NCBI GenBank assembly: GCA_947631645.1
Contig: CANRMD010000010.1
Location: forward strand, 1 to 48,279
Length of the DNA stretch: 48,279 nucleotides
Source of the DNA: Candidatus Gastranaerophilales bacterium
GTDB lineage: Bacteria > Cyanobacteriota > Vampirovibrionia > Gastranaerophilales > Gastranaerophilaceae
Direction: 5' to 3'
Shown: positions 4,054 to 14,925 of the stretch, piece by piece
Layout of the letters: the number at the start of each line of letters is the position of its first letter
Position numbering within the stretch: the first letter of the stretch is position 1
Notes under the pieces: model-generated
The model's input: only the letters and a program-made list of their open reading frames with translations
Told to the model about the DNA's origin: nothing
Database searches by the model: none
Program-made: the position numbers and the translations under genes

Positions 4054-5418
4054 TTATTCCTCATTCGGAAGTACTTTGTTTAAAGCTTTATATGCTATAT
4101 CCGTTAATTTCTCGATTTCTTTTTCGGTAATTATATATGGAGTTATAAAATATATACAATTCCACATAGGGCGGAGTATTGCACCGAGTTTTAACCCCTC
4201 AAGATAAATTTTCTTGCCTATTCCGTCTTCATAAGAAAAAGGCTCTTTTGTCTTTTTATCTTTAACCAGTTCAATCGCACATATCATACCTGTTTGACGA
4301 ATATCACCAACATTTTTGTGATTTCTGAATTTTTCAAGTTCCTTAGAAAATTTAGCAATTTTAGGTTTTAAATATTCTTCAATATTCATATCTTCCAATA
4401 TTTTAAGGTTTTCAAGAGCAACCGCAAGTGCCAGCGGATATGCGGTATAACTGTGCCCGTGGTAAAAAGTTTTATACCCGTCAGTATCATCATCATAAAA
4501 GGCATTAAAAATTTCATCTGTCGTAACGGTAACGGATAACGGCATATAACCTGCTGTAATTCCTTTTGCCGCACATATAATATCAGGAACAATCCCTGCG
4601 TGTTCATAGGCAAACAGTTTGCCTGTTCGGTAAAAGCCCATTGCAACTTCATCATCAATAAGCAAAATATTATATTTGTCACAAATTGCTCTTAATTTGG
4701 AAATATATTTAGGCGGATACATAATCATTCCGCCTGCTGCCTGAACTAACGGTTCAATTATAATACCGGCAATATTTTGTGCTTCTTCTTTTAATATATC
4801 CTCAACACTCTGCAAACACTCACAGTTACAAGTTTCTTTTTCGCATTTCATAGGACATCTGTAACAATACGGGCTTAATGCCTGCCTTATTTCAAATAAC
4901 AGCGGTTTATAAAGTTTATGATACATATCTATTCCGCCGACAGAAACTGCACCTAAAGTATCGCCGTGGTATGAATTTTTTAATGCAATAAATTTCTTTT
5001 TTTCGGGATGTCCTTTTAAAACCTGATATTGGTATGCCATTTTTAGAGCAACTTCAACAGCAGTGGAACCGTTATCGGAGAAAAAAACTTTTGTTAATTT
5101 ATTGTTCATCATTTTTACAAGCTTTTTAGAAAACTCAATAACGGGTCTATGTGTAAAGCCCGCAAAAATAACGTGTTCTATTTGTTTTGTTTGTTTATAT
5201 ATTGCTTTATTAATTTTGCGATTTGAATGTCCTAATGTATTTACCCACCAAGAAGATACCGCATCTATATATTTATTCCCGTCTATATCTTCTAAGTATA
5301 TTCCTTTCCCGCGTTTTATAACAATGGGCTTATTTTCTTCATTTTCAAGCGATTTCATTTGCGTAAAAGGACGCCATATATATTTTAAATCATCTTCGAT
5401 TAATTGCTTTTTATTCAT
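4054..5418 (-). CDS. bioA: adenosylmethionine-8-amino-7-oxononanoate aminotransferase BioA
   Basis: BioA transfers the amino group of S-adenosylmethionine to 8-amino-7-oxononanoate (KAPA) to give 7,8-diaminopelargonate. This 454-residue class III PLP aminotransferase has WRPFTQM (about 15-21), SSWWVNTLGH (about 55-64), IDDEVAMGF (254-262) and the PLP lysine K285 in AAKGITAG. Six cysteines fall within 17 residues (185, 188, 192, 197, 199, 201). Many BioA proteins have YCYRCP here, but such a dense cluster could bind a metal. It heads the bioA-bioD unit, with AGAGG before the ATG, and is divergent from the amino-sugar gene at 5511. Confidence 0.95.
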   Translation of the reverse strand: MNKKQLIEDDLKYIWRPFTQMKSLENEENKPIVIKRGKGIYLEDIDGNKYIDAVSSWWVNTLGHSNRKINKAIYKQTKQIEHVIFAGFTHRPVIEFSKKLVKMMNNKLTKVFFSDNGSTAVEVALKMAYQYQVLKGHPEKKKFIALKNSYHGDTLGAVSVGGIDMYHKLYKPLLFEIRQALSPYCYRCPMKCEKETCNCECLQSVEDILKEEAQNIAGIIIEPLVQAAGGMIMYPPKYISKLRAICDKYNILLIDDEVAMGFYRTGKLFAYEHAGIVPDIICAAKGITAGYMPLSVTVTTDEIFNAFYDDDTDGYKTFYHGHSYTAYPLALAVALENLKILEDMNIEEYLKPKIAKFSKELEKFRNHKNVGDIRQTGMICAIELVKDKKTKEPFSYEDGIGKKIYLEGLKLGAILRPMWNCIYFITPYIITEKEIEKLTDIAYKALNKVLPNEE

Positions 5419-8343: not shown

Positions 8344-9489
8344 TTAAATTGTTTCTAATAAATTTATAAGTTTGCCAATACGATCTTCCCATGTATTTGC
8401 TTGTGCTTCGGTGTTTAACAAATTTAGATAATCCAAATCAGACTTTAAGGAAAGTGCTTTATGTATAGCGTTTACAAACTCTTGTGGTGTATCAGCAATC
8501 AAACAAGACTTATAATTTTTGCATTCATTTATAGAGGTAGTAATTATAGGCTTTTGTAATGACATATACTCAAATAATTTCACCGGAGAGGTATTTGCAG
8601 TAATGAGATTTCTTTGGAAAGGAATAATAGCTATATCAAAAAAAATAGCATATTTTGGAATTTCCTGATATTTTATTTTAGGGATATAGGTTATGTTATC
8701 TATTTTAAACATATCCTCAACATTTTTACCGGCTTTAATACCAATGCAAACAAATTCAAACTCGGGGTGATATTTTGCAGTTTCAGAGAGTAACTCATAA
8801 TCAAACCACTCATCTACAATACATCCGTAATAACCAATAATGGGTTTTTGTTTTTCTAATATTTTAGCTATCGGTGGTGGAGGAATTTGTGGTTTTTCGA
8901 TTTTAAAGTCTTCAATATTTACCGCATTTTTTAACAAAATAATATTTTTATCCGAACCTCTGTATTTAACAGCCTCTTTGTATAAACCGTCAGCAGTTGC
9001 TGATATTATTATACGATTATTTGTACAAATTTTTATAAATTCTGCTTTTAATTCTTTTTTCATATTTGGAATTAAATCAAAATCATCTACATGTTCGTAA
9101 ACAACTTTATTGTTATTTTTAATTGCTATATTTAAATATTTGGAAATGTGTTTAAGTGTATAATGTGTACTTATAGATAGAATAATTTTGGGAACTTTTT
9201 TATCTGTAATTAATTTTTTCAAAAACTTATAAGGAACTAAATACAGATTATTTGAATATTGAAACATTCTGCTGACATTAATATCTGCTGCGACAACTAT
9301 ATATCCTCTCTCTATAAATTTATCAATCAAATGTTCACCTCTTTGTTGCATACTTGTTAACATTGAATAAGTGGATGCAAAAAGTATAATTGGTTTTTGG
9401 GTATCTTTTTGCAGAGATTTTAATTTTTTGAATGATAAATTTGACTTTTTAATATGATTTAATATATTTTGTATAAATTTAATTCTCAT
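8344..9489 (-). CDS. GT-B fold glycosyltransferase (GT4-like)
   Basis: This 381-residue protein looks like a glycosyltransferase acting on a surface polysaccharide, with two Rossmann-like halves. The first half has QQRGEHLIDKFIERGY (about 48-63). The second half carries IGYYGCIVDEWFDYELL, then SPVKLFEYMSLQKPII (about 310-325), the nucleotide-sugar binding region typical of GT4/TuaH-like enzymes. There is no membrane segment, so it is probably cytoplasmic and acts on a lipid-linked acceptor. It is the last gene of the eight-gene minus-strand operon, ten bases after the WavE-like gene. Donor and acceptor are unknown. Confidence 0.78.
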   Translation of the reverse strand: MRIKFIQNILNHIKKSNLSFKKLKSLQKDTQKPIILFASTYSMLTSMQQRGEHLIDKFIERGYIVVAADINVSRMFQYSNNLYLVPYKFLKKLITDKKVPKIILSISTHYTLKHISKYLNIAIKNNNKVVYEHVDDFDLIPNMKKELKAEFIKICTNNRIIISATADGLYKEAVKYRGSDKNIILLKNAVNIEDFKIEKPQIPPPPIAKILEKQKPIIGYYGCIVDEWFDYELLSETAKYHPEFEFVCIGIKAGKNVEDMFKIDNITYIPKIKYQEIPKYAIFFDIAIIPFQRNLITANTSPVKLFEYMSLQKPIITTSINECKNYKSCLIADTPQEFVNAIHKALSLKSDLDYLNLLNTEAQANTWEDRIGKLINLLETI

Positions 9490-9499
9490 TATTTTCTTT

Positions 9500-10480
9500 C
9501 TATTTTACTAAATCTTTAATATTTATAATAAGAAAATCTAAAAAATATAAAATATTAGATTTTGCAATATACTTAAAATAAAGTTTTAACCAATTTTTAT
9601 AATTCATAATATGGTGGCCTTTAAATTTTTTTACATTTAATCTTTCTAAAGAAGGCTTTAATGCAAAAACATTCCATTGATGTGCATTTATTCCAACAAA
9701 ATTATTAACGTAGCTTAAATCTGAATTTTTGATATTTTCATCAGAATTATCAGATAAATCTTGGAATTTAGACATTATATTCGGATATTTTTTGTTTAAA
9801 CATTCTTTCCATAAATGCATTTCAGGACAAAATCTGTAAATACTTCCTTGATAAATAATATATTGTTCGGCATTAACAGGATTATTTTTCAAAAACCAAT
9901 TTGCTTCTTCTTCGGATTGAAGAGGAATATCATATAAAAATTGCAAGTCGGAAGTTAAACCAAAAAATATAAAATCGCAAGGATGAAATGGTGTTCTATC
10001 AGAAAAACACTGGCAAAAAGATACAATTCTTTTTTTAAACACTTTCATTTCTTCTGTAGTATTTTTGTATTTGTCGAAGTATTTTAAGAACCCTGTACCT
10101 CTAATTTCAAAATCAGTACGAAGCTTTAAAGAATATGGAGTTTTTACTTTTTTTAGACCATTTATGGTTGAAATAATTTGCCTGTTAACATTGTTCAATA
10201 TAAGTGATTGAGGTTCTGTTTTTTGAGGATCTTGAACATATGTATAGCCGGGATCTTTATTTAAAACCAAAATATCATAATCTAATCCTTCAACATTACT
10301 TCCCTCCCAAGTGGAAAGAATAATTATAGACTCAGGTAAATATTTTCTGATACTTTTTAAACATCGAGAAGTATAATCTTTATCAATAGGTCCTTGAACT
10401 ACTACTGATATATCTTTATATGATATCATTTGATTATTGGATTTCATTTTTATAAAAACCGTTTTTTTTAATAATATCAT
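9500..10480 (-). CDS. WavE-family lipopolysaccharide/surface-glycan synthesis protein
   Basis: The sequence matches the WavE family first described in Vibrio LPS core clusters. It has the opening ISVVVQGPIDKDYTSRCL, then IILSTWEG, the block DPGYTYVQDPQKTEP and the conserved SLKLRTDFEI segment that probably contains the acidic metal/sugar-nucleotide site. It spans 326 residues. Neither the ATG at 10480 nor the ATG at 10447 has a good ribosome binding site, so the first dozen residues are uncertain. It lies in the polysaccharide operon between the cupin and the GT4-like enzyme. The transferred sugar is unknown. Confidence 0.75.
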   Translation of the reverse strand: MILLKKTVFIKMKSNNQMISYKDISVVVQGPIDKDYTSRCLKSIRKYLPESIIILSTWEGSNVEGLDYDILVLNKDPGYTYVQDPQKTEPQSLILNNVNRQIISTINGLKKVKTPYSLKLRTDFEIRGTGFLKYFDKYKNTTEEMKVFKKRIVSFCQCFSDRTPFHPCDFIFFGLTSDLQFLYDIPLQSEEEANWFLKNNPVNAEQYIIYQGSIYRFCPEMHLWKECLNKKYPNIMSKFQDLSDNSDENIKNSDLSYVNNFVGINAHQWNVFALKPSLERLNVKKFKGHHIMNYKNWLKLYFKYIAKSNILYFLDFLIINIKDLVK

Positions 10481-10507
10481 AACATTTTTCGGAATTCAAT
10501 TATAGTT

Positions 10508-10837
10508 TTAAATAGTATCTAAATATTTATCATTATTAGCCCCGGGATATTTAACAACTACATTTTGAGTTCCGTCTTCCAAACATTCAAAATCAGTTGA
10601 GTCATATGGTTCCATCACAATAATGTCACCTTTTTTATATTCAATCCCGTTCATTTTTACTCTGCCTTGAGTGATAACCGTTATTTCAGTTGCAATTTTA
10701 TGGTAGTGTCGATGTTCATAGTCGCCTTTATTATATTCTTTAACTGCAACTTCAACGTCATTTGTTTTTATTAAAGTTGGTTCAAAATTTCCTATAAACC
10801 AGCCCTTTATCATTTCTTCAAGTTTTGCGGTTTTCAT
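10508..10837 (-). CDS. small cupin-domain protein
   Basis: This 109-residue single-domain cupin has the two usual motifs: HRHYHKIATEITVITQGRV (about 43-61) and a second with GDIIVMEPYD (about 71-80). The histidines H43, H45 and the glutamate of TEIT could bind a metal. Small cupins in glycan loci can be sugar isomerases or epimerases or act as binding proteins; it lacks the RGxHAHK motif of FdtA, so a different role is likely. Only three bases separate it from the membrane-protein gene upstream, so the two are cotranscribed. The substrate is unknown. Confidence 0.75.
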   Translation of the reverse strand: MKTAKLEEMIKGWFIGNFEPTLIKTNDVEVAVKEYNKGDYEHRHYHKIATEITVITQGRVKMNGIEYKKGDIIVMEPYDSTDFECLEDGTQNVVVKYPGANNDKYLDTI

Positions 10838-10840
10838 TTA

Positions 10841-11788
10841 TTAAAGACTCCGTTTAAATTTAATTTTTATCCATAAAATAGTTAGTATTTTATGAGAATC
10901 TTTATTTTTTATCGAAAATATTTTTTGGACAATATTTTCCCAAAACCATTTGCATACTTTAATAATACCTATTTCAGCAAATAAATTTTTTTCTGTAGGA
11001 TTAACAATATTTAATATTTTGTTAGAAATATCAGTGAAATTACTGTGTACAAAATCTAAATATGCTTTATTGGAAATAGTATTTATATTTATATATTTTT
11101 GTTTTTCTTCAGGTGTTAAATTTTCCTCTATCTCAGAAATTGAGCTATTTTTATATTTCCTTATATAATAATTTAGGTTATCTATATAAGTTTTTTCCTG
11201 TTGCTTATTCCCTAATCTTTTTACATTATTTTCAAATAATGACCTCGCATCGGATATAATTTTTTTAATTGTTTCGGGGGAAAGTACAGAAAAACCTTTG
11301 CTCTCTGTTATTATAAGTTCATCAGATTCAATCAGGTTTTTTATAGAAGAAAATAATGTTTGTAAAATAAACACATTTATGTAATTAGGTTCTAAATAAA
11401 TTTTCTGATTGCCTTCTACTAAATCATAAAAATGGTTCCAATAATTAATTAGTTTTTGCAAATTATTTATTATGTCTTGCTTGCTACATTGGTAAATAAC
11501 ACCAAATTCAAAATTGTCAGCCTTTAACAATAAGGATAATGAGTTTTCCATTAAAAAAAATGATTTACTAAATTCTAACCAAAATTCATATTTTTTTTGA
11601 TGCAAAGCCTGTAATTTCTGATTTTTTGTATTCAATTTAAAAATTACAATAGGAATAATGATTGTTGCAAATACTGAGATAACGAGACTTAATAAATACA
11701 TAGTATCTTGTAAAGACCAAACTTTATTTGCTTCGTAAAAAAAATTTAAGATTACTTCTTGGTTAAGTATTTCATTAATATTATACAT
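10841..11788 (-). CDS. hypothetical membrane-anchored helical protein
   Basis: The 315-residue product has one clear membrane segment near residues 27-50 (LLSLVISVFATIIIPIVIF), then a long mostly helical, Lys/Glu/Asn-rich cytoplasmic part with no motif I know. Its position inside the polysaccharide operon (15 bases after the second nucleotidyltransferase and three before the cupin) suggests an envelope-linked role such as anchoring or regulation, but this rests on context only. It resembles the DUF-type single-pass proteins often scattered as accessory genes. It could be a late insertion into the operon. Confidence 0.6.
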   Translation of the reverse strand: MYNINEILNQEVILNFFYEANKVWSLQDTMYLLSLVISVFATIIIPIVIFKLNTKNQKLQALHQKKYEFWLEFSKSFFLMENSLSLLLKADNFEFGVIYQCSKQDIINNLQKLINYWNHFYDLVEGNQKIYLEPNYINVFILQTLFSSIKNLIESDELIITESKGFSVLSPETIKKIISDARSLFENNVKRLGNKQQEKTYIDNLNYYIRKYKNSSISEIEENLTPEEKQKYININTISNKAYLDFVHSNFTDISNKILNIVNPTEKNLFAEIGIIKVCKWFWENIVQKIFSIKNKDSHKILTILWIKIKFKRSL

Positions 11789-11803: not shown

Positions 11804-12535
11804 CTATAAAGATTTTAACCCTATATACTTATCTAAATCCTCGGGAGTTCCTATTCCATGCATTTCTGTTTTATTAATTGAATAAATACCGAATTTTTTG
11901 CCTTGCTTTATCGCATAATTATAAACAGGTGCTACATAAAATTCATTGTTTACTCTTTCATTTCTAACTATCATATCTATTGCATTTTGAACAAAATCGC
12001 AACCTTTTTTAAAATAATAAATACCGACCGTTGCATGCTCTGAAATTACTTCTTTTTCTCTAATCATTGTGATTAAACCGTTTTTGTCAAGCTTTGCATA
12101 AGACCATTTTTTATCATTATCTTCAAAACAAAGTACCGACCCGTCCAGTAAACGCTTTTCGCTGTCATCAATATAATCAGCTATATCCATATCAACAATT
12201 TGATCTGAATTTGCAATTAACAAAGCTGTATCATTATTGATTATACGATGAGCATGTAAAACAGTGCAAGCTGCACCTTCAGTCAATTTATCAATTAAAA
12301 CAAATTCAACATTATAATTGGCTTTAATCCAATTTACGGTATCTTGTTCATTTTCATAATGTTCAGCTCGAGCGAGCAAGATAAATTTTGCATTTTCCAT
12401 TTTTAAATTGTCCAATACATGGCAAATCATTGGTTTCCCTAAAACATCTATAAACGGTTTAGGCTTTTTATATCCAACTTTTGCAAACCTTGAACCGGCA
12501 CCTGCCATTGGAATAACAATATTTATCTTATTCAT
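11804..12535 (-). CDS. sugar-phosphate nucleotidyltransferase (copy B, canonical motif)
   Basis: A 243-residue NTP_transferase fold enzyme. MAGAGSRFAKVGYKKPKPFI (about 10-29) is the nucleotide-binding loop with its basic patch, and ANSDQIVDMD (about 120-129) is the metal/substrate strand. The ATG at 12535 is chosen because AGGAG lies eight bases upstream; it is one base beyond the stop of the preceding gene. It is similar along its length to that neighbour (shared segments such as GxDFV and YYFKKG versus YYKKG), so the pair arose by duplication. Together with a phosphatase and a GDPD-like enzyme it likely makes an activated polyol- or sugar-phosphate. Substrate unknown. Confidence 0.82.
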   Translation of the reverse strand: MNKINIVIPMAGAGSRFAKVGYKKPKPFIDVLGKPMICHVLDNLKMENAKFILLARAEHYENEQDTVNWIKANYNVEFVLIDKLTEGAACTVLHAHRIINNDTALLIANSDQIVDMDIADYIDDSEKRLLDGSVLCFEDNDKKWSYAKLDKNGLITMIREKEVISEHATVGIYYFKKGCDFVQNAIDMIVRNERVNNEFYVAPVYNYAIKQGKKFGIYSINKTEMHGIGTPEDLDKYIGLKSL

Positions 12536-12536
12536 T

Positions 12537-13259
12537 TTAATTGCTCCTGTGAGATAAGTAATTTTCGTACATTTGATAGGTTGAAAAAGATATATAATCT
12601 TTTTTTTGAATTTCATAAATGCCAATATTTTTTTGATTTAAAATCATTTCGTTAAAAGTAGAACTTATGTAATAAACTCCTTGTGTATTAGCATCTTTTT
12701 CGATAACGGAAAATGCTGCATTTACAAAATCAGAACCTTTTTTATAGTAGCAGCAGCCCGTTGATGCAATATCGGAAATTGGTCTTTTTTCGCTTGTTTG
12801 AATAACCAAGTTGTTTTCATCTAATAAAACGGAACTGTATTTCGGATTAATTGCTTTAATTGTAACTATTCCGCCATCTAAATCTCTATTTCTGAAATCA
12901 TTAATTGCAGGAGCAATATCTGTTTTTAAAAGTTGGTCTCCGTTTAAAATTAAGAGTTCTTCGTTGTTATTAATTTTATCAATTGCAAACAATGCTGTAC
13001 AAACTGCACCCTTTGTTTCACCTGCAACTTCTATTATATTGCAGGACGGACAAAGAATTTTTATAGTATCGCCTAAAAAATATTTTTCCTGATCTGATTT
13101 TCGAATTATACAAGAAATATTTTCTCCGACTGTTTCTAATGATTCAATAATTCTTTGAATTATCGGTTTGTGTTGGACTTCTATTAAATATTTCGGAAAA
13201 GAAAAGCCTTTTTCTTCATAGTCTTTAGCAGCACCTGCCATTAAAATTATAATATTCAT
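12537..13259 (-). CDS. sugar-phosphate nucleotidyltransferase paralogue (copy A, degenerate loop)
   Basis: This 240-residue NTP_transferase-fold protein opens MNIIILMAGAAKDYEEKGFS. The loop that in active pyrophosphorylases reads like GxGSR is here GAAKDY, although the following FPKYLIEV and LNGDQLL (near residue 100) are kept. It may use a different substrate or be a partner of copy B and not active by itself. Its ATG overlaps the stop of the HAD gene by four bases, and copy B starts one base after its stop, so translation of the three is coupled. Confidence 0.75.
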   Translation of the reverse strand: MNIIILMAGAAKDYEEKGFSFPKYLIEVQHKPIIQRIIESLETVGENISCIIRKSDQEKYFLGDTIKILCPSCNIIEVAGETKGAVCTALFAIDKINNNEELLILNGDQLLKTDIAPAINDFRNRDLDGGIVTIKAINPKYSSVLLDENNLVIQTSEKRPISDIASTGCCYYKKGSDFVNAAFSVIEKDANTQGVYYISSTFNEMILNQKNIGIYEIQKKDYISFSTYQMYENYLSHRSN

Positions 13260-13912
13260 TGTTTAATATCTCCTGTTATAAAAGGTGCATTTTCTATTTC
13301 TTTTATTCGTTTTTTGATATTTTGATAAGTTACTTCATAAACGGTTTCAACTTTTAAAAGATTTGCACCGCTTGCTAATGCTGCTTTAACACCATTTTGA
13401 TTGTCCTCTACAACAAGGCATTCTTCCGGTTTTAAACCAAACCTTTGTATTGCCGTTTGATAAATTTCAGGATCGGGCTTTGATTTTGTAACATCTTGGT
13501 TGGACAATGTAAAGTTGAGATATTTTTGTAAATCTGCTTTTTCCATCATCATATCGATAGTTACTCTAACAGAATTAGAAGCTAAAGCTAGTCCATAGCC
13601 TTCGGCTTTTAATTTAGCAAGGGCATATTGATGATTAAATAACGGTTTACATTTCATATAAACGTGTTCCATTGTGTATATTTGTTTCATATGATTAATA
13701 AAATTATGCAAGCCTTTTGGTAACCCTTTTTCCATAGAAAGCATTTCTAGTTTTTTTCTTGTTGGTAACCCATCAAACGTAACAAGGTGATCATATCTTG
13801 AAATTTTATATCCAAAAAGGTCTAAAGCTTGGTTTAATGCTTCATAATGCCAATCTTTAGCTTCAATTAAAACTCCATCCATATCAAAAATAACGGCTTT
13901 TATTTTACTCAT
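13256..13912 (-). CDS. HAD-superfamily phosphatase (beta-phosphoglucomutase/GPH-like)
   Basis: This 218-residue HAD protein has motif I DMDGVL (residues 10-15, nucleophile D10), motif II LASNS near residue 113, motif III lysine in KSKPDPEIY (about 144-152) and motif IV VVEDNQNGVKAA (about 166-177). The helical cap between motifs I and II places it with the phosphoglycolate phosphatase/beta-phosphoglucomutase subgroup. In glycan clusters such enzymes remove or move a phosphate on a sugar or polyol phosphate. It overlaps the GDPD-like gene by eight bases and copy A by four, so it is in the same translational unit. Confidence 0.85.
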   Translation of the reverse strand: MSKIKAVIFDMDGVLIEAKDWHYEALNQALDLFGYKISRYDHLVTFDGLPTRKKLEMLSMEKGLPKGLHNFINHMKQIYTMEHVYMKCKPLFNHQYALAKLKAEGYGLALASNSVRVTIDMMMEKADLQKYLNFTLSNQDVTKSKPDPEIYQTAIQRFGLKPEECLVVEDNQNGVKAALASGANLLKVETVYEVTYQNIKKRIKEIENAPFITGDIKQ

Positions 13913-14546
13913 TAAAATATTCCTCCGCTTCTTCAGGATAATCTGTGCATAACATTATTTTTGAAATATTCTTATATCGTTCCCACACTTTTTTATGTTC
14001 TCTTTTATGTAAATCAGGTGAGACGATACACACCTGTTTGTTCCGGTTTAGTATATCTCTAATTTCTTTTTCTCTAAACCAATCAGAATTAAAGCAATCA
14101 AGCCAAATGCCTTTTGCTTTTTCAAACATAATCGGTATGGGAACAATGTCACTTAATCCCGTAAACACATTTAAACCAACTTTATGTTGGACAACCATTT
14201 CCGGAATAGACATATCAAAAGTGAAATAATTCGTCTGATTATATTTTTCTAATAAACGTTTAATTTCTTCCGCTTGACCATCAGCTTTAATATTTAATGC
14301 CAAAGTTAAATTTCTTCCGTCTAAAAGTCGGAGTAATTCTTCAAAATGCATTTCATTACCTTTTGGCATATTATGTGAAATAACAATTTCACCTTTTATA
14401 TCTCTCAGGTCAGTCTCAATTCCAAAACCACAATCAAAAGCTCTTTCAAATGCCGCTTTTGTATTTTTTTCATTTTCAGTTTTCCAATAACCTCTATGTG
14501 CAAGTATTATCGTAGTTTTATAATTATTACAGAGGCTTTTATTCAT
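13905..14546 (-). CDS. glycerophosphodiester phosphodiesterase-like protein, first gene of polysaccharide operon
   Basis: The 213-residue TIM-barrel protein has the GDPD signature AHRGYW with catalytic histidine (about residues 17-22), the metal pair IETDL (about 43-47) and the second catalytic histidine in ISHN (about 54-57). Known GDPDs cleave glycerophosphodiesters to glycerol 3-phosphate. Here it may edit or make a glycerol-phosphate precursor or decoration, given the phosphatase and nucleotidyltransferases behind it. The start at 14546 is chosen over the ATG at 14552 because GGAGG sits seven bases before the former and one before the latter. A leader ORF with a G10 tract lies just upstream. 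Confidence 0.78.
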   Translation of the reverse strand: MNKSLCNNYKTTIILAHRGYWKTENEKNTKAAFERAFDCGFGIETDLRDIKGEIVISHNMPKGNEMHFEELLRLLDGRNLTLALNIKADGQAEEIKRLLEKYNQTNYFTFDMSIPEMVVQHKVGLNVFTGLSDIVPIPIMFEKAKGIWLDCFNSDWFREKEIRDILNRNKQVCIVSPDLHKREHKKVWERYKNISKIMLCTDYPEEAEEYFNE

Positions 14547-14576
14547 AAACATGCCTCCATATAATTGAAAAATTTT

Positions 14577-14627
14577 TTAGTCTGTCCCCCCCCCCGACAA
14601 TTTACAAATATCAGGTTTTTTGAACAT
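14577..14627 (-). CDS. 16-residue leader ORF containing a G10 homopolymer
   Basis: On the minus strand GGGAG (14640-14636) precedes ATG 14627 by eight bases, a strong ribosome binding site. The frame encodes MFKKPDICKLSGGGTD and stops at TAA 14579-14577. The three glycines come from ten G residues (14595-14586). With nine G the frame would run on to TGA 14545-14543, overlapping the GDPD ATG as ATGA; with eleven it would end at TAA a few bases inside that gene. A phase-variable, translationally coupled leader is a reasonable reading. The peptide itself is unrecognised. Confidence 0.45.
   Translation of the reverse strand: MFKKPDICKLSGGGTD
14586..14595. repeat. C10/G10 homopolymeric tract
   Basis: Ten consecutive C on the plus strand (G on the minus strand) is the only G/C run of this length in the window and very unlikely by chance in DNA this AT-rich. 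Such tracts slip during replication and drive on/off switching of surface-structure genes in, for example, Campylobacter. This one lies 40 bases before the first gene of the polysaccharide operon and inside a leader ORF. It could also mark a sequencing-length error. Confidence 0.85.
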
Positions 14628-14658
14628 CTTTTACACTCCCTAAAAATAAACTTACTTT

Positions 14659-14710
14659 ATTATATCTGTTCATATTTTAATATAAAATTTTAGAATTTAA
14701 AACAGATATA
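14659..14710 (-). promoter_or_regulatory. promoter of the polysaccharide operon within an inverted repeat
   Basis: On the minus strand TATAAT (14664-14659) lies about 32 bases before the leader ORF start. No good -35 box is visible. It overlaps one arm of an inverted repeat: TATATCTGTT (14661-14670) and AACAGATATA (14701-14710), 30 bases apart. The repeat covers the whole promoter and could be a two-half-site operator. Confidence 0.4.
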
Positions 14711-14753
14711 TATTATATTGTTATAATGATATAGTTTATTTTGTATGAAAAAA

Positions 14754-14827
<74 letters not shown>

Positions 14828-14925
14828 ATTTTTATTAAGTTTTCAAATTTCAAGTTTAAAAATAAATGTATGTTTTTAGTTTAAAAAACTCAGCATATTA
14901 CCCTTTAAGGGCTCTAATTGCTTTT

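Follow-up and report, generated by a model that had tools for sequence, protein, structure and literature searches.

A poly-G leader cassette of Candidatus Gastranaerophilales as a probable translational phase switch, found ahead of a glycan-type operon

Poly-G/C contingency tracts usually frameshift the switched protein itself or alter its promoter, and in known phasevarions the repeats sit inside mod, hsdM, hsdS or type IIG genes. In the contingency loci of Campylobacter, Helicobacter and Neisseria, hypermutable G tracts of 7-13 bases occur many times per genome in surface and R-M genes; two reviews cover the mechanism (PMC11868660, PMC8355987). Slippage in homopolymers has also been described for R-M systems in PMC12707154, where hairpins that limit access to REase starts and a possible C-gene coupling are reported as well. 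In such start-site hairpin coupling, an upstream ORF that ends in ATGA or TAATG crosses a Shine-Dalgarno hairpin. In Helicobacter pylori tlpB-hp0102, a variable G tract lies in the 5' leader of a glycan gene and involves the small RNA RepG, and the authors of PMC8295292 argue against direct coupling. Within the open-access literature, Gastranaerophilales were not found together with phase variation or restriction-modification, and Melainabacteria, to which the order belongs, were found together with phase variation in a flagellin paper. Likewise, none of the matches listed from this literature for phase variation or slippage with coupling, a leader peptide, an upstream ORF or R-M holds the design described below, which is no proof of its absence.

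The window analysed here is a stretch of 48,279 nucleotides with a G+C content of 30%, and is contig 10 of the 1,868,227-base, 77-contig draft genome of a Candidatus Gastranaerophilales bacterium. The leader region on its minus strand contains the following elements.

14671..14705, minus strand: promoter-like block TTTAAA, 16 nt, TAAAAT, conserved in a 6-copy alignment
14636..14640, minus strand: leader Shine-Dalgarno GGGAG, read from the sequence; GGAG is kept across the 6-copy alignment
14577..14627, minus strand: leader ORF as assembled (G10), 16 codons, with the early stop TAA at 14579-14577 (sequence and frame table)
14586..14595, minus strand: G10 tract (sequence and shuffles)
14543..14545, minus strand: TGA, the leader stop at G9 or G12, in an ATGA overlap with the downstream start (frame table)
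14522..14566, minus strand: predicted hairpin with arms 14566-14553 and 14536-14522 and a bulge at 14528, the downstream Shine-Dalgarno (14558-14554) in the stem and the ATG in the loop

The first-pass annotation had described this leader and three of its reading frames, and read directly, base for base, its description holds: GGGAG 14640-14636 is followed after eight bases by ATG 14627-14625, and the frame runs through G10 (14595-14586) to TAA 14579-14577, which lies 30 bases ahead of ATG 14546-14544 of a GDPD-like gene and has its first base at -33. The frame table bears out the other two frames as well: with G9 (also with G12) the leader ends in a TGA at +1 of the GDPD-like start, giving the ATGA overlap, and with G11 (also with G8) it ends in a TAA at +5, just inside the gene. 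Each tract length class thereby has a distinct predicted outcome for downstream expression. The mechanical ORF list places the GDPD-like start six bases earlier, at ATG 14552; we take ATG 14546 as the start because GGAGG 14558-14554 is well spaced only for this codon.

The tract is far longer than expected by chance, a G10 being found in 0/100 dinucleotide shuffles of the window; the window itself has nine G/C runs of 5 bases and a single one of 10, with no run of 6-9. Of the 1548 ATGs in the window, its own start among them, 3 (41-nt tail) or 4 (50-nt tail) have the layout of an early stop, a start-overlapping stop and a stop just inside the gene, as do 1 or 2 of 74 control starts; considered by itself, a stop that overlaps the start in some open frame is common (19/74). 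On the shuffles and the control-start counts we rejected pure chance as the origin of tract and layout. A promoter consensus scan taken alone is at chance level (4 sites vs 2.8 +/- 1.4 in shuffles).

Eight copies of the cassette were found in seven Candidatus Gastranaerophilales-type genomes from three genera: the window copy, G019_C13, G019_C23, G026_C21, G231_C2, G182_C1, G021_C66 and G007_C89, with G007, G026 and G019 belonging to the genus of the window. They were gathered by a DNA search of 58 genomes, by pattern searches of 383 genomes of the order and of GTDB genomes, and by a sequence-only profile search of 383 genomes of the family, in collections that hold one genome per species. Among the 58 genomes, the leader part (query 1-184 or less) was found at 87-88% identity ahead of other genes twice in G019 and once in G026, and more weakly in G007, while the GDPD part was found elsewhere without the leader. 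The profile matched 79/383 genomes at E <= 0.01, the cassettes being the seven at E <= 5.5e-25 plus the copy in G021 (2.8e-8); the other profile-match loci inspected were taken as other poly-G leaders or chance and not as cassettes, and two of the 7 pattern places in the 383 order genomes (G133 and G116) were set aside by eye as unrelated. Viral contigs (0 stretches), phage records and plasmid records gave no cassette. The limits of homology are sharp: in G019_C13, G231 and G182 the shared stretch begins near -207 relative to the leader ATG and ends somewhere in +90 to +97, at the downstream start, and the window is 87.5% identical to G019_C23 and G026_C21 between -78 (position 14705, upstream of which no homology with other copies extends) and +111, its divergence from the nearest copies being 12-13%.

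The leader start and ribosome binding site singled out by the first-pass annotation are conserved, in that the start codon, the Shine-Dalgarno and the three-frame stop layout are present in all 7 readable copies; G007, whose contig ends just behind the leader, was omitted from the frame table. Conservation of the leader itself is confined to part of it: the tail layout is kept, but the residues before the tract are shifted by indels in the window, G021 and G007, and on these grounds we rejected the leader peptide as the effector. Of the three frames, the first terminates 33 or 42 nt short of the downstream ATG, the second overlaps this codon and the third runs on to stop 5 or 8 nt within the gene; each of the 6 readable copies with a tract has a phase whose overlapping stop reads ATGA or TAATG. 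The ATGA layout is found in G182 too, where the G tract is replaced by GTGGGCCCCC (L124, about 4075-4095) and the fixed frame reads through the downstream start. These 7 readable copies represent only two independent tail types, unrelated to each other: type a in the window, G019_C23 and G026, and type b in G019_C13, G231, G182 and G021. A search for further type b tails matched 4/383 genomes, all already known. As assembled, the window (G10) and G026 (G11) are in the early-stop phase, and G019_C23, G019_C13, G021 (G10 each) and G231 (G7) are in the overlap phase.

In the window, the end of the leader is predicted to fold over the downstream start (z -3.33 for 56 nt and -2.52 for 81 nt). GGAGGC would pair with GCCTCT of codons 4-6 as part of a longer stem, with the AUG in the loop at a predicted unpaired probability of 0.93 and next to a strong downstream Shine-Dalgarno. 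Opening the stretch from -14 to +2 is predicted to cost 11.7 kcal/mol, compared with a control mean of 5.1, and 2/74 control starts match this cost (74 being left after removal of six cassette starts from 80). Only the two longer leader frames cross this hairpin, and the early stop falls just before the stem; the reach of a stopped ribosome toward a stem is general knowledge. Type b tails are predicted to form stems of 14-16 pairs with GGAGG and AUG both inside (z -4.49 and -2.79). With the tract included, the folds of G019_C23 and G026 have z near 0 (L080 -0.10, L014 0.02) and the fold of G007 has -1.53; the minimum-energy folds of G019_C23 and G026 over a uniform span contain the same core hairpin as the window, and the outer stem has a mismatch in both. 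The opening cost is matched by 1 of the 74 controls for G019_C23, 1 for G026, 0 for G019_C13, 0 for G231 and 2 for G021, placing 6/7 copies within the top few per cent, the exception being G182 (7/74). Covariation adds no support for the structure: 129/500 shuffles were as good, 11/16 pairs being invariant and one showing a change on both sides.

The first-pass annotation suggested checking related genomes for differences in tract length, and these exist among the other copies. Cassette tracts have 7, 10 or 11 G, one copy lacking a tract, and the length differs between the orthologous loci G019_C23 (G10, overlap phase) and G026_C21 (G11, early stop), whose orthology rests on 95.8% identity over 2.4 kb and 99.5% over 3.0 kb. 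In the window's own genome (G000), a 4.1-kb segment present on C39 and C43 (L069/L070) at 98.9% identity has G9 in one and G11 in the other, the pair being either a duplicate or two assembled variants. This genome has 61 overlapping G9 matches, corresponding to 37 tracts of 9-11 G, and G10 or longer is present (presence only was scored) in 7/9 other genomes searched, including 4/4 of the same genus.

Other poly-G tracts stand in different contexts. By eye, poly-G in the window's genome lies directly before TATAAT-like hexamers, often as G9-G11 and then TAAAAGTGGTATAAT (L054, L055 with two tracts, L059, L061, L063, L068, L069 and L070), and judging by this arrangement these tracts are probable cases of promoter-spacer phase variation. 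A role as promoter spacer was rejected for the window tract, which, unlike them, is part of a leader ORF with its own Shine-Dalgarno and start codon ahead of the tract, the conserved promoter-like block lying about 80 nt further upstream. Short ORFs with G10-G12 are also seen ahead of or inside type IV prepilin-like genes in other members of the family; 23 of 26 profile-match loci examined have G9 or longer, and 14/23 have a downstream prepilin-type motif in some frame (L097, L098, L101, L102, L104, L107, L108, L110-L113, L115, L118 and L119). At several of these prepilin-type loci a CUCC stretch behind the tract is, by eye, complementary to GGAG before the leader start.

The genes behind the cassette differ between copies. 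The first-pass annotation had tied the leader to a surface-polysaccharide operon, but the leader is not specific to surface glycans: in six of the other seven copies the gene that follows is large, of methyltransferase or R-M type, and these genes belong to unrelated families; the seventh (G007) runs off its contig. The gene in G231 is of Eco57I type (PF07669 1.5e-44; PADLOC type IIG 7.3e-114); those in G019_C13 and G021 match N6_Mtase (1.8e-21 and 2.2e-27), their best PADLOC ranks being type IIG and type I methyltransferase, respectively. The G026_C21 and G182 genes have no Pfam or PADLOC match, are 24% alike over about 760 residues and contain NPPY and INPP, respectively, and the G019_C23 gene is an orthologue of the G026_C21 gene with an internal deletion; motif and similarity suggest that all three are likely methyltransferase-type. 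The deletion in G019_C23 (L121) is located about 0.9 kb past the leader ATG and seems to have short AAAAGA repeats on either side. Genes for IS1595-type (ISXO2-like) transposases lie near the units in G019_C13, G231 and G021 (L120:6625-7650, L123:8520-9491, L125:77-718), and the units at L120 and L123 have 96% identity downstream although their methyltransferase genes differ.

In the window, the gene behind the cassette is not of R-M type, and G000 gave 0 matches for a methyltransferase-type gene or remnant. Instead, the cassette is followed by the GDPD-like gene and the operon that it heads.

14753..14828, minus strand: tRNA-Arg(acg), adjoining the cassette, at the edge of a species-variable region
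13905..14546, minus strand: GDPD-like gene, first codons MNKSLCN, weak PDB matches to GDPDs
13256..13912, minus strand: HAD-type phosphatase gene (HAD_2 5.6e-35), 8-nt overlap with the GDPD-like gene
12537..13259, minus strand: sugar nucleotidyltransferase-type gene 1 (NTP_transferase 5.6e-06), 4-nt overlap
11804..12535, minus strand: sugar nucleotidyltransferase-type gene 2 (NTP_transferase 1.8e-14), start 1 nt past the previous stop
8344..11788, minus strand: rest of the operon, with a 315-aa ORF, a 109-aa ORF, a WavE-type gene (WavE 2.5e-48) and a group 1 glycosyltransferase (Glyco_trans_1_4 8.9e-08)

The 315-aa and 109-aa ORFs have no Pfam match. From the WavE, glycosyltransferase and nucleotidyltransferase genes, the product of the operon would be a surface glycan. 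The GDPD-like protein has no Pfam or NCBIfam match, and its name is a weak identity call from PDB matches of its N-terminal part to GDPDs (best E 0.0004). Its first codons, MNKSLCN, recur at the 5' end of the methyltransferase-type gene in G026 and G019, close relatives of the GDPD-like gene align from residue 8 or 14 only, and the sequence shared with the methyltransferase copies stops five or six bases beyond the hairpin's 3' arm. Judged by its sequence, the window copy is a cassette with the 5' end of a methyltransferase-type gene, fused to a glycan-type operon. The GDPD-like, HAD and two nucleotidyltransferase genes are kept together in G001, G011, G018 (with the second nucleotidyltransferase shortened) and G019, and in G019 a separate C10 tract on the gene strand (L128:7351-7360) splits the GDPD-like orthologue. 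Immediately ahead of its GDPD-like gene, G011 has a small gene of the phage-integrase family (L127:8786-9331). The tRNA-Arg(acg) is found at 22/30 fetched loci with the neighbouring glycosyltransferase gene, and beyond it, in the nine plus-strand-stored loci inspected, the genes mostly differ and include one phage integrase (L158:150-830). An exact second copy of the last 14 bases of the tested tRNA-side stretch was not found in the window, the only match being the tRNA itself.

Combining the frame table with the predicted folds and the comparison of copies, we suggest that the cassette probably serves phase variation by hairpin-gated translational coupling. In this model, ribosomes would start at the leader ATG 14627 and read through the G tract with one of three outcomes: (i) at G10 they would stop at TAA 14579-14577 before the hairpin, the downstream Shine-Dalgarno would stay paired and the operon would be off or low, (ii) at G9 or G12 they would cross the hairpin, end on the ATGA and re-initiate at the downstream start, turning expression on, and (iii) at G8 or G11 they would cross the hairpin and stop five bases inside the gene, opening the start perhaps less well. 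Slipped-strand changes of the tract would move cells between phases. Given that the first four operon genes overlap or abut, coupling or polarity would be expected to carry the effect through the front of the operon. The window is assembled in the early-stop (OFF) phase, off being the predicted effect. The earlier proposal that tract length gates ribosome access to the downstream start gains from the predicted hairpin, the layout in 7/7 readable copies, the length difference between orthologous loci and the C10 in the GDPD-like gene of G019, and we retain it as a prediction; of the phases assigned to tract lengths, the early stop at G10 and the overlap at G9 stand, whereas G11 probably also opens the start. 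Two further observations favour the model: the tail layout persists despite the indels before the tract, and G182 without its tract still reads through the start. Against it weigh the strong downstream Shine-Dalgarno, the unpaired AUG of the window, the unsupportive covariation, the tract-containing folds with z near 0, the controls that match the opening cost of G182, the frequency of overlapping stops as such and the presence of only two independent tail types. The usual cargo of the cassette in the group would be methyltransferase-type or R-M-type genes, and in the window recombination would have joined the cassette, intact through the hairpin's 3' arm and slightly beyond it, to the glycan-type operon. 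The anatomy, the shared layout and the length differences between copies are observed and the structure is predicted. Slippage in the population, coupling, the effect on the glycan and the direction of capture are those parts of the model that we infer.

Alternatively, RNA polymerase may slip on the G10 tract and create a mixture of frames in each cell, in which case the tract would set a level of expression and would not be a heritable switch. In other systems a run of ten identical bases suffices for transcript slippage, but the copies differ in tract length in the DNA, and we consider this explanation improbable. A similarly small chance is given to the tract acting as RNA and not through the frame, its length altering small-RNA binding or a ribosome standby site as in tlpB/RepG: the 5' leader is G-rich and PMC8295292 offers the precedent of a leader length that tunes an LPS gene, yet the start codon, Shine-Dalgarno and three-frame stop layout are kept in 7/7 readable copies, which speaks against this explanation.

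Rather than a switch, the window copy could be the non-functional relic of an R-M-type leader after a deletion, with the operon driven regardless by a captured promoter and the strong Shine-Dalgarno. That methyltransferase-type genes follow six of the other seven copies, and that the window copy has diverged by 12-13% from its nearest copies and stands in the early-stop phase, would suit a relic; however, two indels in the window still leave the overlap phase and an uninterrupted G10, the hairpin and the stop layout are intact, and the orthologous gene elsewhere has its own tract, and we regard a relic as unlikely. Homopolymers are error-prone in sequencing and the genome is a draft in 77 contigs, which raises the question of an artefact, with the tract miscounted or unrelated sequences joined at the GDPD-like start. 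No other copy found is identical to this cassette, which is therefore not a stray piece of one of them, the neighbouring glycosyltransferase and tRNA-Arg are common to the genus and seven other copies exist; we rate an artefact as very improbable.

Returning to hairpin-gated coupling as the preferred reading, we propose a wider scenario only tentatively and with less than even confidence. Ca. Gastranaerophilales may carry a transferable cassette, consisting of promoter, leader ORF, poly-G and start-site hairpin, that acts as a heritable three-phase translational switch for any gene behind it; it would have passed between R-M-type genes that are unrelated and been taken up by a surface-glycan operon, with one module varying phage defence and surface receptors. 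With the repeat in a separate leader, a gene can be switched without a change of its protein, and the position of the repeat outside the switched gene would explain how one short unit comes to stand before unrelated genes. Such a unit would be a simple, portable and testable genetic part, and would show a stock of G-tract switches, absent from the open-access literature searched, in a gut lineage beside Cyanobacteria.

The locus shares its kind of tract with the poly-G/C contingency loci, and differs from them in that the tract has a leader ORF to itself and would leave the switched protein unaltered. As in phasevarions, phase-variable control of methyltransferases and R-M systems is suggested by the other cassette copies, which precede type IIG and N6-adenine methyltransferase-type genes, but here the repeat is outside the gene. 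The upstream ORF is arranged as in start-site hairpin coupling, with the difference that a homopolymer makes it switchable, and the variable G tract in a 5' leader recalls tlpB-hp0102, where in contrast the repeat is the target of a small RNA with a graded effect. In phase variation by repeats as usually described, a gene is frameshifted or a promoter is retuned; here the repeat is borne by the leader.
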